A stretch of 64,000 nt of DNA, taken from the NCBI GenBank assembly GCA_006226425.1, contig SBGX01000031.1, positions 124,001-188,000 of the forward strand. Reading direction: 5' to 3'. The stretch is from Bacteroidota bacterium. Lineage in GTDB: Bacteria; Bacteroidota; Bacteroidia; Flavobacteriales_D; Crocinitomicaceae. The notes under the pieces are model-generated. The model saw only the letters and a list, made by a program, of their open reading frames with translations, was not told the origin of the DNA and did no database searches. The translations under genes and the position numbers were made by a program. Positions 5,498 through 47,385 of this stretch are shown here, piece after piece; positions within the stretch are counted from its first letter, which is position 1, and every line of letters begins with the position of its first letter.

Positions 5498-6145
5498 TTA
5501 TTCGGCAGCCTTTTCTTCTCCTTCTTCGCTGGCCTCAGTAGTTTCTTCAGCAGCTGGAGCTTCTTCTGCAGGAGCCTCTTCAGTTGCAGGAGTTTCCTCC
5601 ACAACAGCTTCCTCTGTACTTGCTTCAGCAGGAGCTTCTTCCCCTTCAGCTACAGCCTCAGGAGCCTCTTCTACTACTTCTGGTTCTGGTGCGTTCTTAG
5701 CTTCGAGTTCTTTCGCACGAGCTTCTTTTACTTCCATTTCTGCCTTCAAAGCTGCTGCTTTCGCTTCATCTTGAGCTTTGGAAACACCTTCTGTTTTTGA
5801 AGTAATCTTAGCTTCTTTTTCCTTCATCCATGCGTCAAATTTCTTCTCAACATCAGCTTCAGTCAAAGCTCCTTTCTTCACTCCGTTCAATAGGTGATTT
5901 TTGTACAAAATTCCTTTATAAGACAAAATAGCTCTTGCCGTATCTGTCATTTCTGCACCTTCCTGCACCCAGTTCAGGGTACGATCAAAATCAAGATCAA
6001 TCGTGGCAGGATTTGTAACTGGATTGTACGTTCCTAGTTTTTCGATGAATTTACCATCTCTTTTAGCGCGCGAATCCGCTACTACCAAATGAAAGAAAGG
6101 TCTTCCCTTTCTACCATGTCTTTGCAATCTAATTTTTGTTGCCAT
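5498..6145 (-). CDS. rpsP: 30S ribosomal protein S16 with long acidic tail
   Basis: The first 80 residues are a normal S16 (MATKIRLQRHGRKGRPFFHLV, then DFDRTLNWVQEGAEMTDTAR). The start is the ATG at 6145; a further in-frame ATG at 6226 would add a non-family leader lying over the promoter. The protein runs to 215 residues against about 80-90 in most bacteria. Residues about 105-150 are Lys/Glu/Ala-rich and probably helical, and from about residue 150 the tail is almost purely Glu, Ala, Pro and Thr. Extended S16 proteins are known in Bacteroidota, but this tail is long and strongly acidic. A TTG-N19-TATCTTTG promoter lies 50 bp upstream. First gene of rpsP-rimM. Confidence 0.93.
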   Translation of the reverse strand: MATKIRLQRHGRKGRPFFHLVVADSRAKRDGKFIEKLGTYNPVTNPATIDLDFDRTLNWVQEGAEMTDTARAILSYKGILYKNHLLNGVKKGALTEADVEKKFDAWMKEKEAKITSKTEGVSKAQDEAKAAALKAEMEVKEARAKELEAKNAPEPEVVEEAPEAVAEGEEAPAEASTEEAVVEETPATEEAPAEEAPAAEETTEASEEGEEKAAE

Positions 6146-6198
6146 AATGTTTATTATTTGGGGTCCGAAACCCCTATTAATAATTAATTTTCGAGCTG

Positions 6199-6228
6199 CA
6201 AAGATAGTCATATTTTTTTGTTCCACAA
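6199..6228 (-). promoter_or_regulatory. Promoter of rpsP-rimM
   Basis: On the minus strand, TATCTTTG (6199-6206) is preceded after 19 bp by TTG (6226-6228), matching the Bacteroidota -7 and -33 elements. The predicted transcript start is near 6195, giving a leader of about 50 nt. Confidence 0.75.
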
Positions 6229-44042: not shown

Positions 44043-44117
44043 GGTGGTTGTAGCTCAGTTGGTTAGAGCGCCGGATTGTGGTTCCGGAGGTCGTGGGTTC
44101 GAGACCCATCTTCCACC
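44043..44117 (+). tRNA. tRNA-His (GTG anticodon)
   Basis: A complete cloverleaf with the His-specific extra G at -1 (44043) facing discriminator C73 (44117). The D arm is 44053-44069, the anticodon GTG is at 44078-44080 on stem CCGGA/TCCGG, and the T arm is 44093-44109 with loop TTCGAGA. CCA is not encoded. The acceptor stem GTGGTTG pairs with CTTCCAC apart from two adjacent T-T positions (5-68 and 6-67). Its 3' half is repeated 160 bp downstream. Confidence 0.93.
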
Positions 44118-44118
44118 C

Positions 44119-44183
44119 TGAAAGCTTCACAGGAATGTGAGGCTTTTTTTGTGTACAATCGGCACTCTGCCTTCGCCCTCCCT
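44119..44183 (+). repeat. 65-bp direct repeat, copy 1
   Basis: The terminator hairpin and about 30 further bases are repeated in the same orientation at 46304-46368 with roughly ten differences. The two copies flank the AT-rich DUF6119 gene. Confidence 0.8.
44121..44150 (+). terminator. Terminator of tRNA-His (repeat copy 1)
   Basis: An 11-bp stem (AAAGCTTCACA / TGTGAGGCTTT, one G-T pair), GGAA loop, and a run of seven T. It ends the tRNA-His transcript and is part of a 65-bp segment repeated at 46304. Confidence 0.85.
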
Positions 44184-44240: not shown

Positions 44241-44279
44241 GTTCCGGAGGTCGTGGGTTCGAGACCTGCCTTATACCCT
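44241..44279 (+). pseudogene. tRNA-His 3'-half fragment
   Basis: Bases 44241-44266 are identical to 44081-44106 of tRNA-His (from the base after the anticodon through most of the T arm). The following bases keep a degraded likeness to the acceptor strand (CCTTATACCCTT against TCTTCCACCCTG). There is no 5' half, so no functional tRNA can form. It looks like an attachment-site scar or the remains of a second tandem tRNA-His. Confidence 0.75.
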
Positions 44280-44369
44280 TAAGTTTTTTTACCCTCAATA
44301 TTGATTCAATTCAAACCATATCATACTTGACATAGAAACGCTATCAAGTAGAGATTCAAATCTACCAGT

Positions 44370-46148
44370 TCACTCTCTATAAATTTTAGAGATGGACATT
44401 CTAATATCCTTAGCCTTAAGAGTATAATAAGTATGTAAAATAGATATCTTCGCTATTGATGATTTGGTAGACTTTATTTCTTCCAAAATTTCGTGTTTCC
44501 CTGTTGTTTTTTTCTTAGTTGCATAGGCAAATACGAACCTAAGACTATCCTTTTTTAAATAGTTGTTTTTAAATTCATCAAAACCAATTCTTCTACCTCC
44601 ATTCCTTTCAGAGAATTTGATTACGCGCTCAAAATAATTCTTGATTGCCGGTTGCTCAAAATCGGAAATCCTGACTTCCGAGATAACTTTGGCACTATTA
44701 AGAATTTGACTTTGAAGAACTCTTAAATTCCGATCAAGACCATTCTTAACATGGTAAATAATCATTTCAGTTTCATTACTAGAAATAAAATCTGCCAATT
44801 CAATGTTCCTATATTTAATCGTATCCCCCATAATTCCCGAATCAAATTTAGACAACAATGATCTATTATAATCTTCTTCGTAATCCGATTCATCAGATTT
44901 CCAATCAGGTAATTCTATTAGATCTATCCTTTCGAACATACTATCTAGTCTGGAATTTAGGTTGCTAACAAAATTCGAAGAATAAGTGTACCAAATGTTC
45001 TCAAACTTAATATAACGGGTATTATTAAACTCTACTTCACCGGACAACCATTCTGACAATTTTCTATCTGAAATCTCTGTGCCAACATCTTCATTTTTGA
45101 TAATTGTCCTCATCCTAGTTATCCATTCCACAAATGTGTCAAATCTGATAGAGGAAGTATCTACGTTAAACGGACGAAGCAATGTTTTCAGATAGATCTT
45201 TTGATTTGTGTTAACATTAAATCGCTCCCTACCCCTCTGCAAATAAATTACAGAACTATTCAAATATTCAATTAGGGAAGGATGGAATATTTCCGTATCA
45301 AGTTTTGGAGAGTTTAAATCGTTATAGTACTGCTTAAATAGCATCTCATTTAGAACACTTTCTAACTCTCTGTCTCTAAACTTTTCTGGCTCGACTACAA
45401 AAGATGATAATTCTTTATACCTTACATTTCTAAAGGGATTAATTTCAAATCCTGGTTCCACTTCTACCTTCAACAATTTGGATAGCCTAGAAATTCTATT
45501 CAAAATGGTTTCCAAATTAATAGAAGTGTCTATTTTGAAGCCAGCCTCGCCTTTAACCAGTAGTTTCTTTCTTTCCGTCTGAACTCCCAATCTAGAAAGT
45601 GCTTTTTCGTCAATAAATGCCTCCAATCCTCTATAAAATTTTCCAAAATCATCATTATCATGAAATACAAAATCAGACCTAAAGAATCTACTAGAGGCTA
45701 GTTCTATTCCCACGAACCCCCTCTCTGATAAAGATCGAATTTCAGTTTTATTAGGATCAATCAATCTCTCTACTATACTAAATCCAAAATCATAGTCAAC
45801 TATCTCCTCAATTATTCTATACGAGTGCCCTCCTGTGATAACGAAAATTTCCGTATATGAAAAAAAGAACATTAAAAGTGCATAATTTTTATTTTTTACT
45901 TCCTGTAATTGATTAGATTTAGCAGCTTCTCTTGATATTCTTAACCAAGAGGGCGGTTTAAAACTCGGACTGTTAATATATTGTAGTATTTGAAATTCTC
46001 CTGCTACTGAATCACTTTCAACAAGATCGTATTTAAGTCCATGCTCAGCATTATAATTGTTCATGAATGTTTCGATAAACTGTTTGGTTTCACCAGTCTT
46101 GAACATTCTACTATTTACTCGAAAAATTTTGGGGCTATATGATGACAT
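44370..46148 (-). CDS. DUF6119 (TIGR04141) sporadically distributed protein
   Basis: A 592-residue protein starting at the ATG at 46148; a TTG two codons upstream lies in the -7 box. The pattern fits DUF6119/TIGR04141: KPPSWL (64-69), a strand pair FFFSYTEIFVITGGHSYR with GGHSYR at 106-111, YDFGFSIVERLIDPNK, a long helical middle, then YEEDYN (423-428), IELADFISS, YHVK (465-468) with a Gln-containing segment VLQSQILNSAKV, and a final FVFAYATKK strand. The family has no established biochemical function and is known for patchy occurrence. Codon use is AT-rich, unlike all neighbours, and it stands alone beside tRNA-His. A role in defence against mobile elements is inference from context. Confidence 0.75.
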   Translation of the reverse strand: MSSYSPKIFRVNSRMFKTGETKQFIETFMNNYNAEHGLKYDLVESDSVAGEFQILQYINSPSFKPPSWLRISREAAKSNQLQEVKNKNYALLMFFFSYTEIFVITGGHSYRIIEEIVDYDFGFSIVERLIDPNKTEIRSLSERGFVGIELASSRFFRSDFVFHDNDDFGKFYRGLEAFIDEKALSRLGVQTERKKLLVKGEAGFKIDTSINLETILNRISRLSKLLKVEVEPGFEINPFRNVRYKELSSFVVEPEKFRDRELESVLNEMLFKQYYNDLNSPKLDTEIFHPSLIEYLNSSVIYLQRGRERFNVNTNQKIYLKTLLRPFNVDTSSIRFDTFVEWITRMRTIIKNEDVGTEISDRKLSEWLSGEVEFNNTRYIKFENIWYTYSSNFVSNLNSRLDSMFERIDLIELPDWKSDESDYEEDYNRSLLSKFDSGIMGDTIKYRNIELADFISSNETEMIIYHVKNGLDRNLRVLQSQILNSAKVISEVRISDFEQPAIKNYFERVIKFSERNGGRRIGFDEFKNNYLKKDSLRFVFAYATKKKTTGKHEILEEIKSTKSSIAKISILHTYYTLKAKDIRMSISKIYRE

Positions 46149-46151
46149 TCT

Positions 46152-46182
46152 CAAACTTAAATAGTCAAACAGAATTTATCAA
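46152..46182 (-). promoter_or_regulatory. Promoter of the DUF6119 gene, leaderless arrangement
   Basis: On the minus strand TTG (46180-46182), 20 bp, then TAAGTTTG (46152-46159). With the usual four-base step the transcript would start at 46148, the A of the ATG itself, so the mRNA may have no leader. Confidence 0.65.
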
Positions 46183-46198
46183 TACGTATTAACACCCT

Positions 46199-46214
46199 AT
46201 TTACTATAGTAAAT
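46199..46214. promoter_or_regulatory. Perfect 16-bp palindrome upstream of the DUF6119 promoter
   Basis: ATTTACTATAGTAAAT is a perfect inverted repeat, 16 bp upstream of the -33 element. It has the form of an operator or activator site for a dimeric DNA-binding protein. No regulator is encoded in the island. Confidence 0.5.
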
Positions 46215-46605
46215 CTGCCTTGACCACATAAAAACAGAAACGAGATAAGAAATTTTGAATTTCCTTCCTCGTCAAACTCGTACAAATTGGCTAACCACCT
46301 CATTGAAAGCTTCACAGAAATGTGAGGCTTTTTTTATGCTCAATCGGCGCTCTTCCTGCACGCTCCCTTTTTTATTCAGACTTTACCCATCAAAAAACCG
46401 CCATTTCCTACCATTTAATAATTGAAAGTAGTCATACATCAATTAAAGGCTTCTTGCACTTTCCCAATGCAACAGTATTATGTAGTTTTGTAATGATTAA
46501 GAAAATTGGTTTCATAATTGTTTGACAACATTTAACGTAAACGTCACTTTCAATTAAACCCGATACGACTTTAGAATTCATCATGCAAATAGTCGTTGCA
46601 AAGAA
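46215..46605. other. Gene-free region between the island and the TetR operon
   Basis: Apart from the repeat copy at 46304-46368 I find no convincing gene here. The possible reading frame at 46322-46525 has no family features and runs through the terminator. A -7-like TAGTTTTG at 46483-46490 is the only promoter-like site and would direct a short RNA towards the terminator at 46607. Confidence 0.5.
46304..46368 (+). repeat. 65-bp direct repeat, copy 2
   Basis: Second copy of the segment at 44119-44183, with the same 11-bp terminator stem (46306-46331), GAAA loop and seven T. The bases just before it (CTAACCACCTCATTG) retain only a slight likeness to the tRNA 3' end, so the copy now follows no tRNA. 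Confidence 0.8.
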
Positions 46606-46634
46606 GCCCGATCCAAACAAGGATCGGGTTTTTT
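46494..46634 (+). ncRNA. Candidate small RNA
   Basis: A plus-strand TAGTTTTG box (46483-46490) predicts a start near 46494, and a strong intrinsic terminator ends at 46634, giving an RNA of about 140 nt. It contains no real reading frame. No -33 element is clear and I do not recognise the RNA; it could equally be intergenic sequence with a leftover terminator. Confidence 0.25.
46607..46634 (+). terminator. Strong intrinsic terminator before the TetR gene
   Basis: An 8-bp perfect stem CCCGATCC / GGATCGGG, loop AAACAA, followed by six T. No annotated plus-strand gene ends here. Confidence 0.85.
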
Positions 46635-46663
46635 ATGCATTTAACATTTTTTTGAAATAAAAA

Positions 46664-46696
46664 TTTGCAAAATAGATAGTATTACTATTATATTTG
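46664..46696 (+). promoter_or_regulatory. Promoter of the TetR-ABC-HlyD-TolC operon
   Basis: TTTG (46664-46667), 21 bp, then TATATTTG (46689-46696): a near-ideal Bacteroidota promoter. The predicted start near 46700 lies 14 nt before the TTG start codon. A regulator acting on its own operon would bind around here. Confidence 0.75.
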
Positions 46697-46713
46697 TAAG
46701 CAAAATAACTTAA

Positions 46714-47385
46714 TTGAATTTTCAAAGCAACATAAGTATCCTCGTAAATGAACAGGTTTATCTGAAATCTCCTGAGTCCAGTAAGCTTGGCCAAAAGATT
46801 ATTAGAGGAAGTATTGACCTGATCGATGAACTCGGCTTTGAAGATTTCACGTTTAAAAAACTGGCTTCTTCCATTCAATCCACAGAGGCATCGATTTACC
46901 GCTATTTTGAGAGCAAACACCACTTATTGGTCTACCTGGTTCTTTGGTACTGGGGCTGGCTGGAGTACCGCATGCATCTGCGCCTGGCGAACATCGAAAA
47001 CCCCAAAGAAAGACTGAAGCGGGCCGTCAGTGTCCTTACTGAAAAAATCACCGAAGATTCCAATTTCTCACAGATCAATGAAGTGAAATTAAATCGGATT
47101 GTGATCTCTGAGGCCTCCAAAATTTACCTCAACAAAAAGGTAGATAGCGAAAATGAACTGGGCTTCTTCCTGCCCTATAAAAGACTGGTGGCACTGGTTT
47201 CTGACATTATCACAGAAATCAACCCGGATTTCAAATACCCGCACATGCTTGTTTCGACTGTTATTGAGGGGGCGAATCACCAACACTTTTTTGCTGAGCA
47301 CCTCCCTCGATTAACAGACTGCTGCGACGACGAGGACGCCATCTCTCATTTTTACCAGGAACTTGTTTTAAACGAAATTAAATGA
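46714..47385 (+). CDS. TetR family transcriptional regulator
   Basis: A 223-residue regulator. The N-terminal helix-turn-helix (about residues 23-70) reads KLGQKIIRGSIDLIDELGFEDFTFKKLASSIQSTEASIYRYFESKHHLL, the standard TetR form, and the remaining helices form a ligand or partner domain. The start is TTG at 46714, as no ATG lies between the promoter and the HTH. Its stop overlaps the ATG of the next gene (ATGA). As the first gene of an export operon it most likely controls that operon; its ligand is unknown. Confidence 0.9.
   Translation: MNFQSNISILVNEQVYLKSPESSKLGQKIIRGSIDLIDELGFEDFTFKKLASSIQSTEASIYRYFESKHHLLVYLVLWYWGWLEYRMHLRLANIENPKERLKRAVSVLTEKITEDSNFSQINEVKLNRIVISEASKIYLNKKVDSENELGFFLPYKRLVALVSDIITEINPDFKYPHMLVSTVIEGANHQHFFAEHLPRLTDCCDDEDAISHFYQELVLNEIK

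Follow-up and report, generated by a model that had tools for sequence, protein, structure and literature searches.

Gene and family assignment

The window, a stretch of 64,000 nucleotides from the genome of a member of the Crocinitomicaceae, carries an intact gene of the DUF6119/TIGR04141 family next to a tRNA-His gene (Table 1). The open reading frame extends from 44370 to 46154 if read from a TTG start; an internal ATG at 46148, with which the starts of homologues align, gives a protein of 592 residues. The preliminary description had recognized the family from a pattern of short motifs, and a profile search confirms the assignment: the protein matches at full length and above the curated cut-offs of both PF19614 (DUF6119; E=3.2e-28, 99.1 bits, cut-off 27) and TIGR04141 (E=7.2e-26, 90.7 bits, cut-off 35). 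The gene is present as a single copy in its own genome, and its product, about 20% identical to its relatives, retains all invariant residues of the family in an undisrupted frame. It falls in a Bacteroidota branch of the family (R476, “RDLxNQ”), as distinct from the canonical branch found on proteobacterial plasmids (“SHLfxQG”).

Table 1. Features of the tRNA-His locus, in window coordinates
Feature	Position	Strand	Basis or remark
tRNA-His, anticodon GTG, read as the integration site	44044..44118	+	
65-nt tRNA terminator region, copy A	44119..44183	+	
Partial copy of the tRNA-His 3' end, 42 nt	44241..44282	+	First 26 nt (44241-44266) identical
DUF6119/TIGR04141 gene, intact, 592 aa	44370..46148	-	ORF and profile matches
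C-terminal domain, residues 335-592, proposed nuclease domain	44373..45146	-	Predicted model, mean pLDDT 89
Stretch coding residues 424-481, with E424, D442, E450, D453, H466, K468 and Q481	44706..44879	-	Invariant in 41 sequences
N-terminal region, residues 1-334, proposed sensing or targeting part	45147..46148	-	Full-length model; role inferred
Perfect 16-nt palindrome ATTTACTATAGTAAAT	46199..46214		51 bp upstream of the start codon
65-nt tRNA terminator region, copy B	46304..46368	+	86% identical to copy A

The surrounding genes are ordinary ones (FAA hydrolase, DUF1572/DinB-like, TetR, ABC transporter, and HlyD), and a check of these neighbors found no defense gene adjoining the DUF6119 copy, which is alone, as the preliminary description had it. 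Its AT-rich codon use, also described there as unlike that of nearby genes, is evident from a GC content of 32.5%, where 52 window ORFs average 43.2% (SD, 2.6), and from a GC3 of 0.29, against 0.456 (SD, 0.049). High AT content extends over the stretch from about 44250 to 46750. A foreign origin of the gene is confirmed. The only other window ORF with a GC3 this low (0.27) lies at 5498-6226 and has a normal overall GC content.

Integration footprint at tRNA-His

The tRNA and the flanking duplication reported earlier proved to be the tRNA-His gene and a 65-nt repeat of its terminator region, the two copies of which bracket the DUF6119 gene, each with a hairpin of about -16 kcal/mol. A genome-wide search found no further copies of the repeat. 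The partial copy of the tRNA 3' end sits between the tRNA and the gene. We also looked for a degenerate tRNA 3' end immediately ahead of copy B and rejected it, as 433 of 500 shuffled sequences scored equally well; with no credible tRNA end at that position, the footprint departs from the textbook attL/attR arrangement. We read it as the mark of integration at the tRNA gene by a recombinase that has since been lost. Because the repeats do not form a clean pair, more than one event is likely to have occurred at this site. Beside the window copy there is no integrase or partner gene left, only att-like footprints. Proximity to a tRNA is not a rule of the family; most homologue loci have no tRNA nearby.

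The palindrome upstream of the gene (ATTTACTATAGTAAAT) reaches a length attained in only 4 of 1000 shuffles and is a possible operator. Long palindromes (14-22 nt) of different sequence also precede several homologues.

Distribution, transfer and selection

Patchy distribution, supposed in the preliminary description, is seen in the genomes searched: the family occurs in 2 of 59, the genome under study being one of the two, and in four relatives tRNA-His is present but the gene is absent. In three of them (G001, G003, and G005) the FAA hydrolase is kept next to tRNA-His and in the fourth (G002) the DUF1572/DinB-like gene; all four have another gene within about 170 bp after the tRNA, and since that gene differs from the one in the window, none of them yielded the exact empty site. 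Neither of the two observations that the earlier account had named as contrary to it, the lack of a profile match and universal presence with normal codon use, was made.

Pairwise comparisons of homologue loci revealed the gene itself as the unit of transfer. Between Marivirga and Fulvivirga, 1790 bp are common at 88.9% identity, corresponding to the gene and about 29 bp upstream of it, and nothing else is common across the roughly 21 kb compared. Two Flavobacterium strains share the gene alone (86%), as do two Flavobacteriales MAGs (76%). The ratio dN/dS was 0.05 in two pairs of homologues and 0.10 in a third, the MAG pair being saturated at synonymous sites; purifying selection on the homologues is strong. 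The sharing of this gene alone between otherwise unrelated loci, together with the low dN/dS, implies that it moves without partners and is kept under selection.

Genomic company of the homologues

A scan of genome contigs recovered 25 homologue loci, all from Bacteroidota as judged by their record titles. Among the 23 that are nonredundant, a gene of the types named below was found near at least 10, counting neighbors within three ORFs of the DUF6119 gene. In Algoriphagus these neighbors comprise a type I restriction-modification (R-M) operon (HsdS and HsdR); a type IIG R-M gene lies near the homologues of a Maribacter and a Flavobacteriales MAG, an Mrr-type endonuclease near another, and a UvrD helicase with an OLD-TOPRIM ATPase (Gabija-like) near that of a Chryseobacterium. 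Further neighbors include a TIR protein, AbiTii proteins, Eco57I and C5 methylases, and AAA and PLD-like proteins. With PADLOC, 468 families were matched in the set of 119 neighbors and 9 in the 89 control proteins, the 9 resembling cross-hits from exonuclease and OmpA-type orthologues that occur repeatedly; the control set is the less diverse of the two, so that the contrast is indicative only. Other homologues, including the one in the window, are solitary among ordinary genes.

Searched by tblastn, the window protein had no match in plasmids and phages, and plasmid homologues were reached with a query from the canonical branch, which retrieved 30 plasmid records, mostly from Pseudomonadota, with Enterococcus and Streptomyces in addition. 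We read 13 annotated plasmid regions. A type I R-M operon contains or adjoins the gene in 7 of them, a count in which several alike alphaproteobacterial regions are not independent: in four the gene lies between hsdS and hsdR, with frames touching or overlapping, and in the remaining three it lies next to the operon. Other plasmid copies lie near genes for AbiH, NACHT, a UvrD/AAA pair with Shedu, or TIR proteins, and in 2 of the 13 regions no recognized defense gene is adjacent. In a Pseudomonas phage, one homologue has an integrase as its neighbor. The survey of homologue neighborhoods that the preliminary description had named as a check did, then, find defense genes, with type I R-M both on plasmids and in Algoriphagus.

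On the alphaproteobacterial plasmids (L108, L109, L115, and L116) the order hsdS, TIGR04141, hsdR, SprT-like metalloprotease recurs, making the metalloprotease a second constant companion of those hsd operons. A DUF6119 fragment related to the branch of the window protein was also seen on an IMG/VR viral contig (L097:10001-10444; E=4.8e-5, below the cut-off).

The C-terminal domain

Eight residues (W386, E424, D442, E450, D453, H466, K468, and Q481) never vary in 41 sequences drawn from Bacteroidota, Pseudomonadota, an Enterococcus, and a phage. All lie in the C-terminal domain, where the predicted model places D453 before a short strand, the HxK in the strand after it, and Q481 in the helix that follows. 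This strand-strand-helix order is compatible with that of PD-(D/E)XK nucleases such as Hjc, whose motifs II to IV are D33, E46/K48, and D61 (PMC1913061). The spacing D453-13-H466-2-K468-13-Q481 of the window protein is the same as that of D33, E46, K48, and D61 in Hjc; in the canonical branch the D-H-K-Q spacing varies. The likeness extends to the motif II aspartate and the motif III lysine, both invariant (D453 and K468), and to a polar residue at motif IV. It ends at the motif III acid, in place of which all 41 sequences have histidine, and for this reason the protein is not classed as a PD-(D/E)XK member.

Nor did comparisons of fold and profile give a significant match: a fold search of the PDB returned nothing with E below 0.03, and when the C-terminal profile was compared by hhalign with HsdR N termini, Mrr, PDDEXK_5, and RdgC, no score reached significance. 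Among the weak PDB matches are several proteins that we take to be restriction-type endonucleases and Holliday junction resolvases. We propose that the C-terminal domain may work in the manner of a PD-(D/E)XK enzyme, with the histidine and neighboring carboxylates binding metal.

The top viral Foldseek match of the full-length model, an “exonuclease” of 284 residues from phage PTXU04, was rejected as support for a nuclease. Two PTXU04 proteins of this length were checked, and the one with a match to an exonuclease family proved RdgC-like, so that the match is no evidence for a PD-(D/E)XK fold. That protein (L123:31001-31855), annotated as hypothetical, matches Pfam PF04381 with E=2.6e-7 and is probably the top viral match in question.

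Proposed function

The recurrence of relatives in antivirus operons, together with the nuclease-like pattern of the active site, suggests that the window protein is probably a stand-alone antiphage enzyme, either a restriction or an abortive-infection nuclease. Our preferred reading, to which we assign a probability of about 0.5, is that of a horizontally acquired, stand-alone defense effector at the tRNA-His site, with a C-terminal domain that is most likely a metal-dependent nuclease. According to this model, the gene would have arrived by horizontal transfer and become established at the tRNA-His integration site; the C-terminal domain of its product would cleave by way of a D...HxK...Q active site in a PD-(D/E)XK-like build; and the N-terminal region would recognize the target or bring it into place, the probable target being invading DNA and the alternative RNA. 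Relatives in hsd operons might then form a second layer behind restriction-modification, a stand-alone antiphage or antiplasmid nuclease having also been recruited into type I operons. We infer the defense function, the nuclease activity, the target, and the trigger.

Two ideas in the preliminary description fared unevenly. The defense role, conjecture in that description, is supported indirectly by the association of relatives with R-M and other defense genes in several phyla, by gene-only transfer, and by the nuclease-like motif; it is the relatives that lie in defense neighborhoods, however, and not the window copy, and the nuclease fold is not proven. As for a single-gene system, the gene does move alone, but many relatives belong to type I R-M operons.

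The embedding of relatives between hsdS and hsdR would also suit a defense protein that cleaves RNA or is otherwise toxic, an abortive-infection effector resembling PrrC that stays silent until a phage disturbs the cell or the partner R-M system. A precedent exists in EcoprrI, where the nuclease gene prrC is embedded in the hsd operon (PMC3874165). We consider this alternative rather unlikely, given that many copies, that of the window included, have no R-M partner alongside and that the ATPase and known tRNase domains of PrrC-type proteins were not found by Pfam and NCBIfam searches, which returned DUF6119/TIGR04141 and one subthreshold match.

It is improbable, in our view, that the protein is instead a nonenzymatic accessory factor of R-M or other DNA-targeting systems, engaged in DNA binding, assembly, or regulation, and that its solitary copies act in trans on host systems. 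Co-operonic placement with hsd genes in several lineages and a full-length Foldseek match that leads to an RdgC-like phage protein of DNA-binding type are consistent with such a role, but transfer of the gene alone between unrelated contexts argues against it, and the invariant block of acidic residues, His, and Lys looks catalytic. Least probable is unused cargo, the leftover of an integrative element that is intact in this strain through recency: the bare att-like footprints, with neither integrase nor partner gene, would fit, but the frame of 592 residues is intact with every invariant residue in place, and the family is under strong purifying selection.

The preferred reading of a stand-alone defense effector can be extended, tentatively, to the family. 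DUF6119/TIGR04141 proteins could be undescribed, widespread defense nucleases with a variant D...HxK...Q site, acting both as a mobile single-gene system and within type I R-M operons, there as an additional subunit or a back-up effector. If so, they would add to bacterial immunity a type of nuclease with an unusual, histidine-containing active site and would exemplify a single gene that travels between solitary sites and R-M operons. Residues D453, H466, K468, and Q481 and the natural operons would then offer handles for probing how restriction is connected with a second-layer effector.

Comparison with known systems

No paper describing DUF6119 or TIGR04141 was found in a search of open-access literature; the family label of TIGR04141 is “sporadically distributed protein.” Among the models of PADLOC-DB 2.0.0, the window protein matched none beyond RT_UG6, a spurious match (E=0.005 over 30 residues). 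With the systems of that database the DUF6119 gene has in common that it is compact, patchily distributed, and found in defense neighborhoods. A parallel in gene arrangement is the PrrC anticodon nuclease of EcoprrI: several DUF6119 relatives, though not the window copy, are likewise embedded in type I R-M operons, and, unlike prrC, many DUF6119/TIGR04141 copies are solitary.
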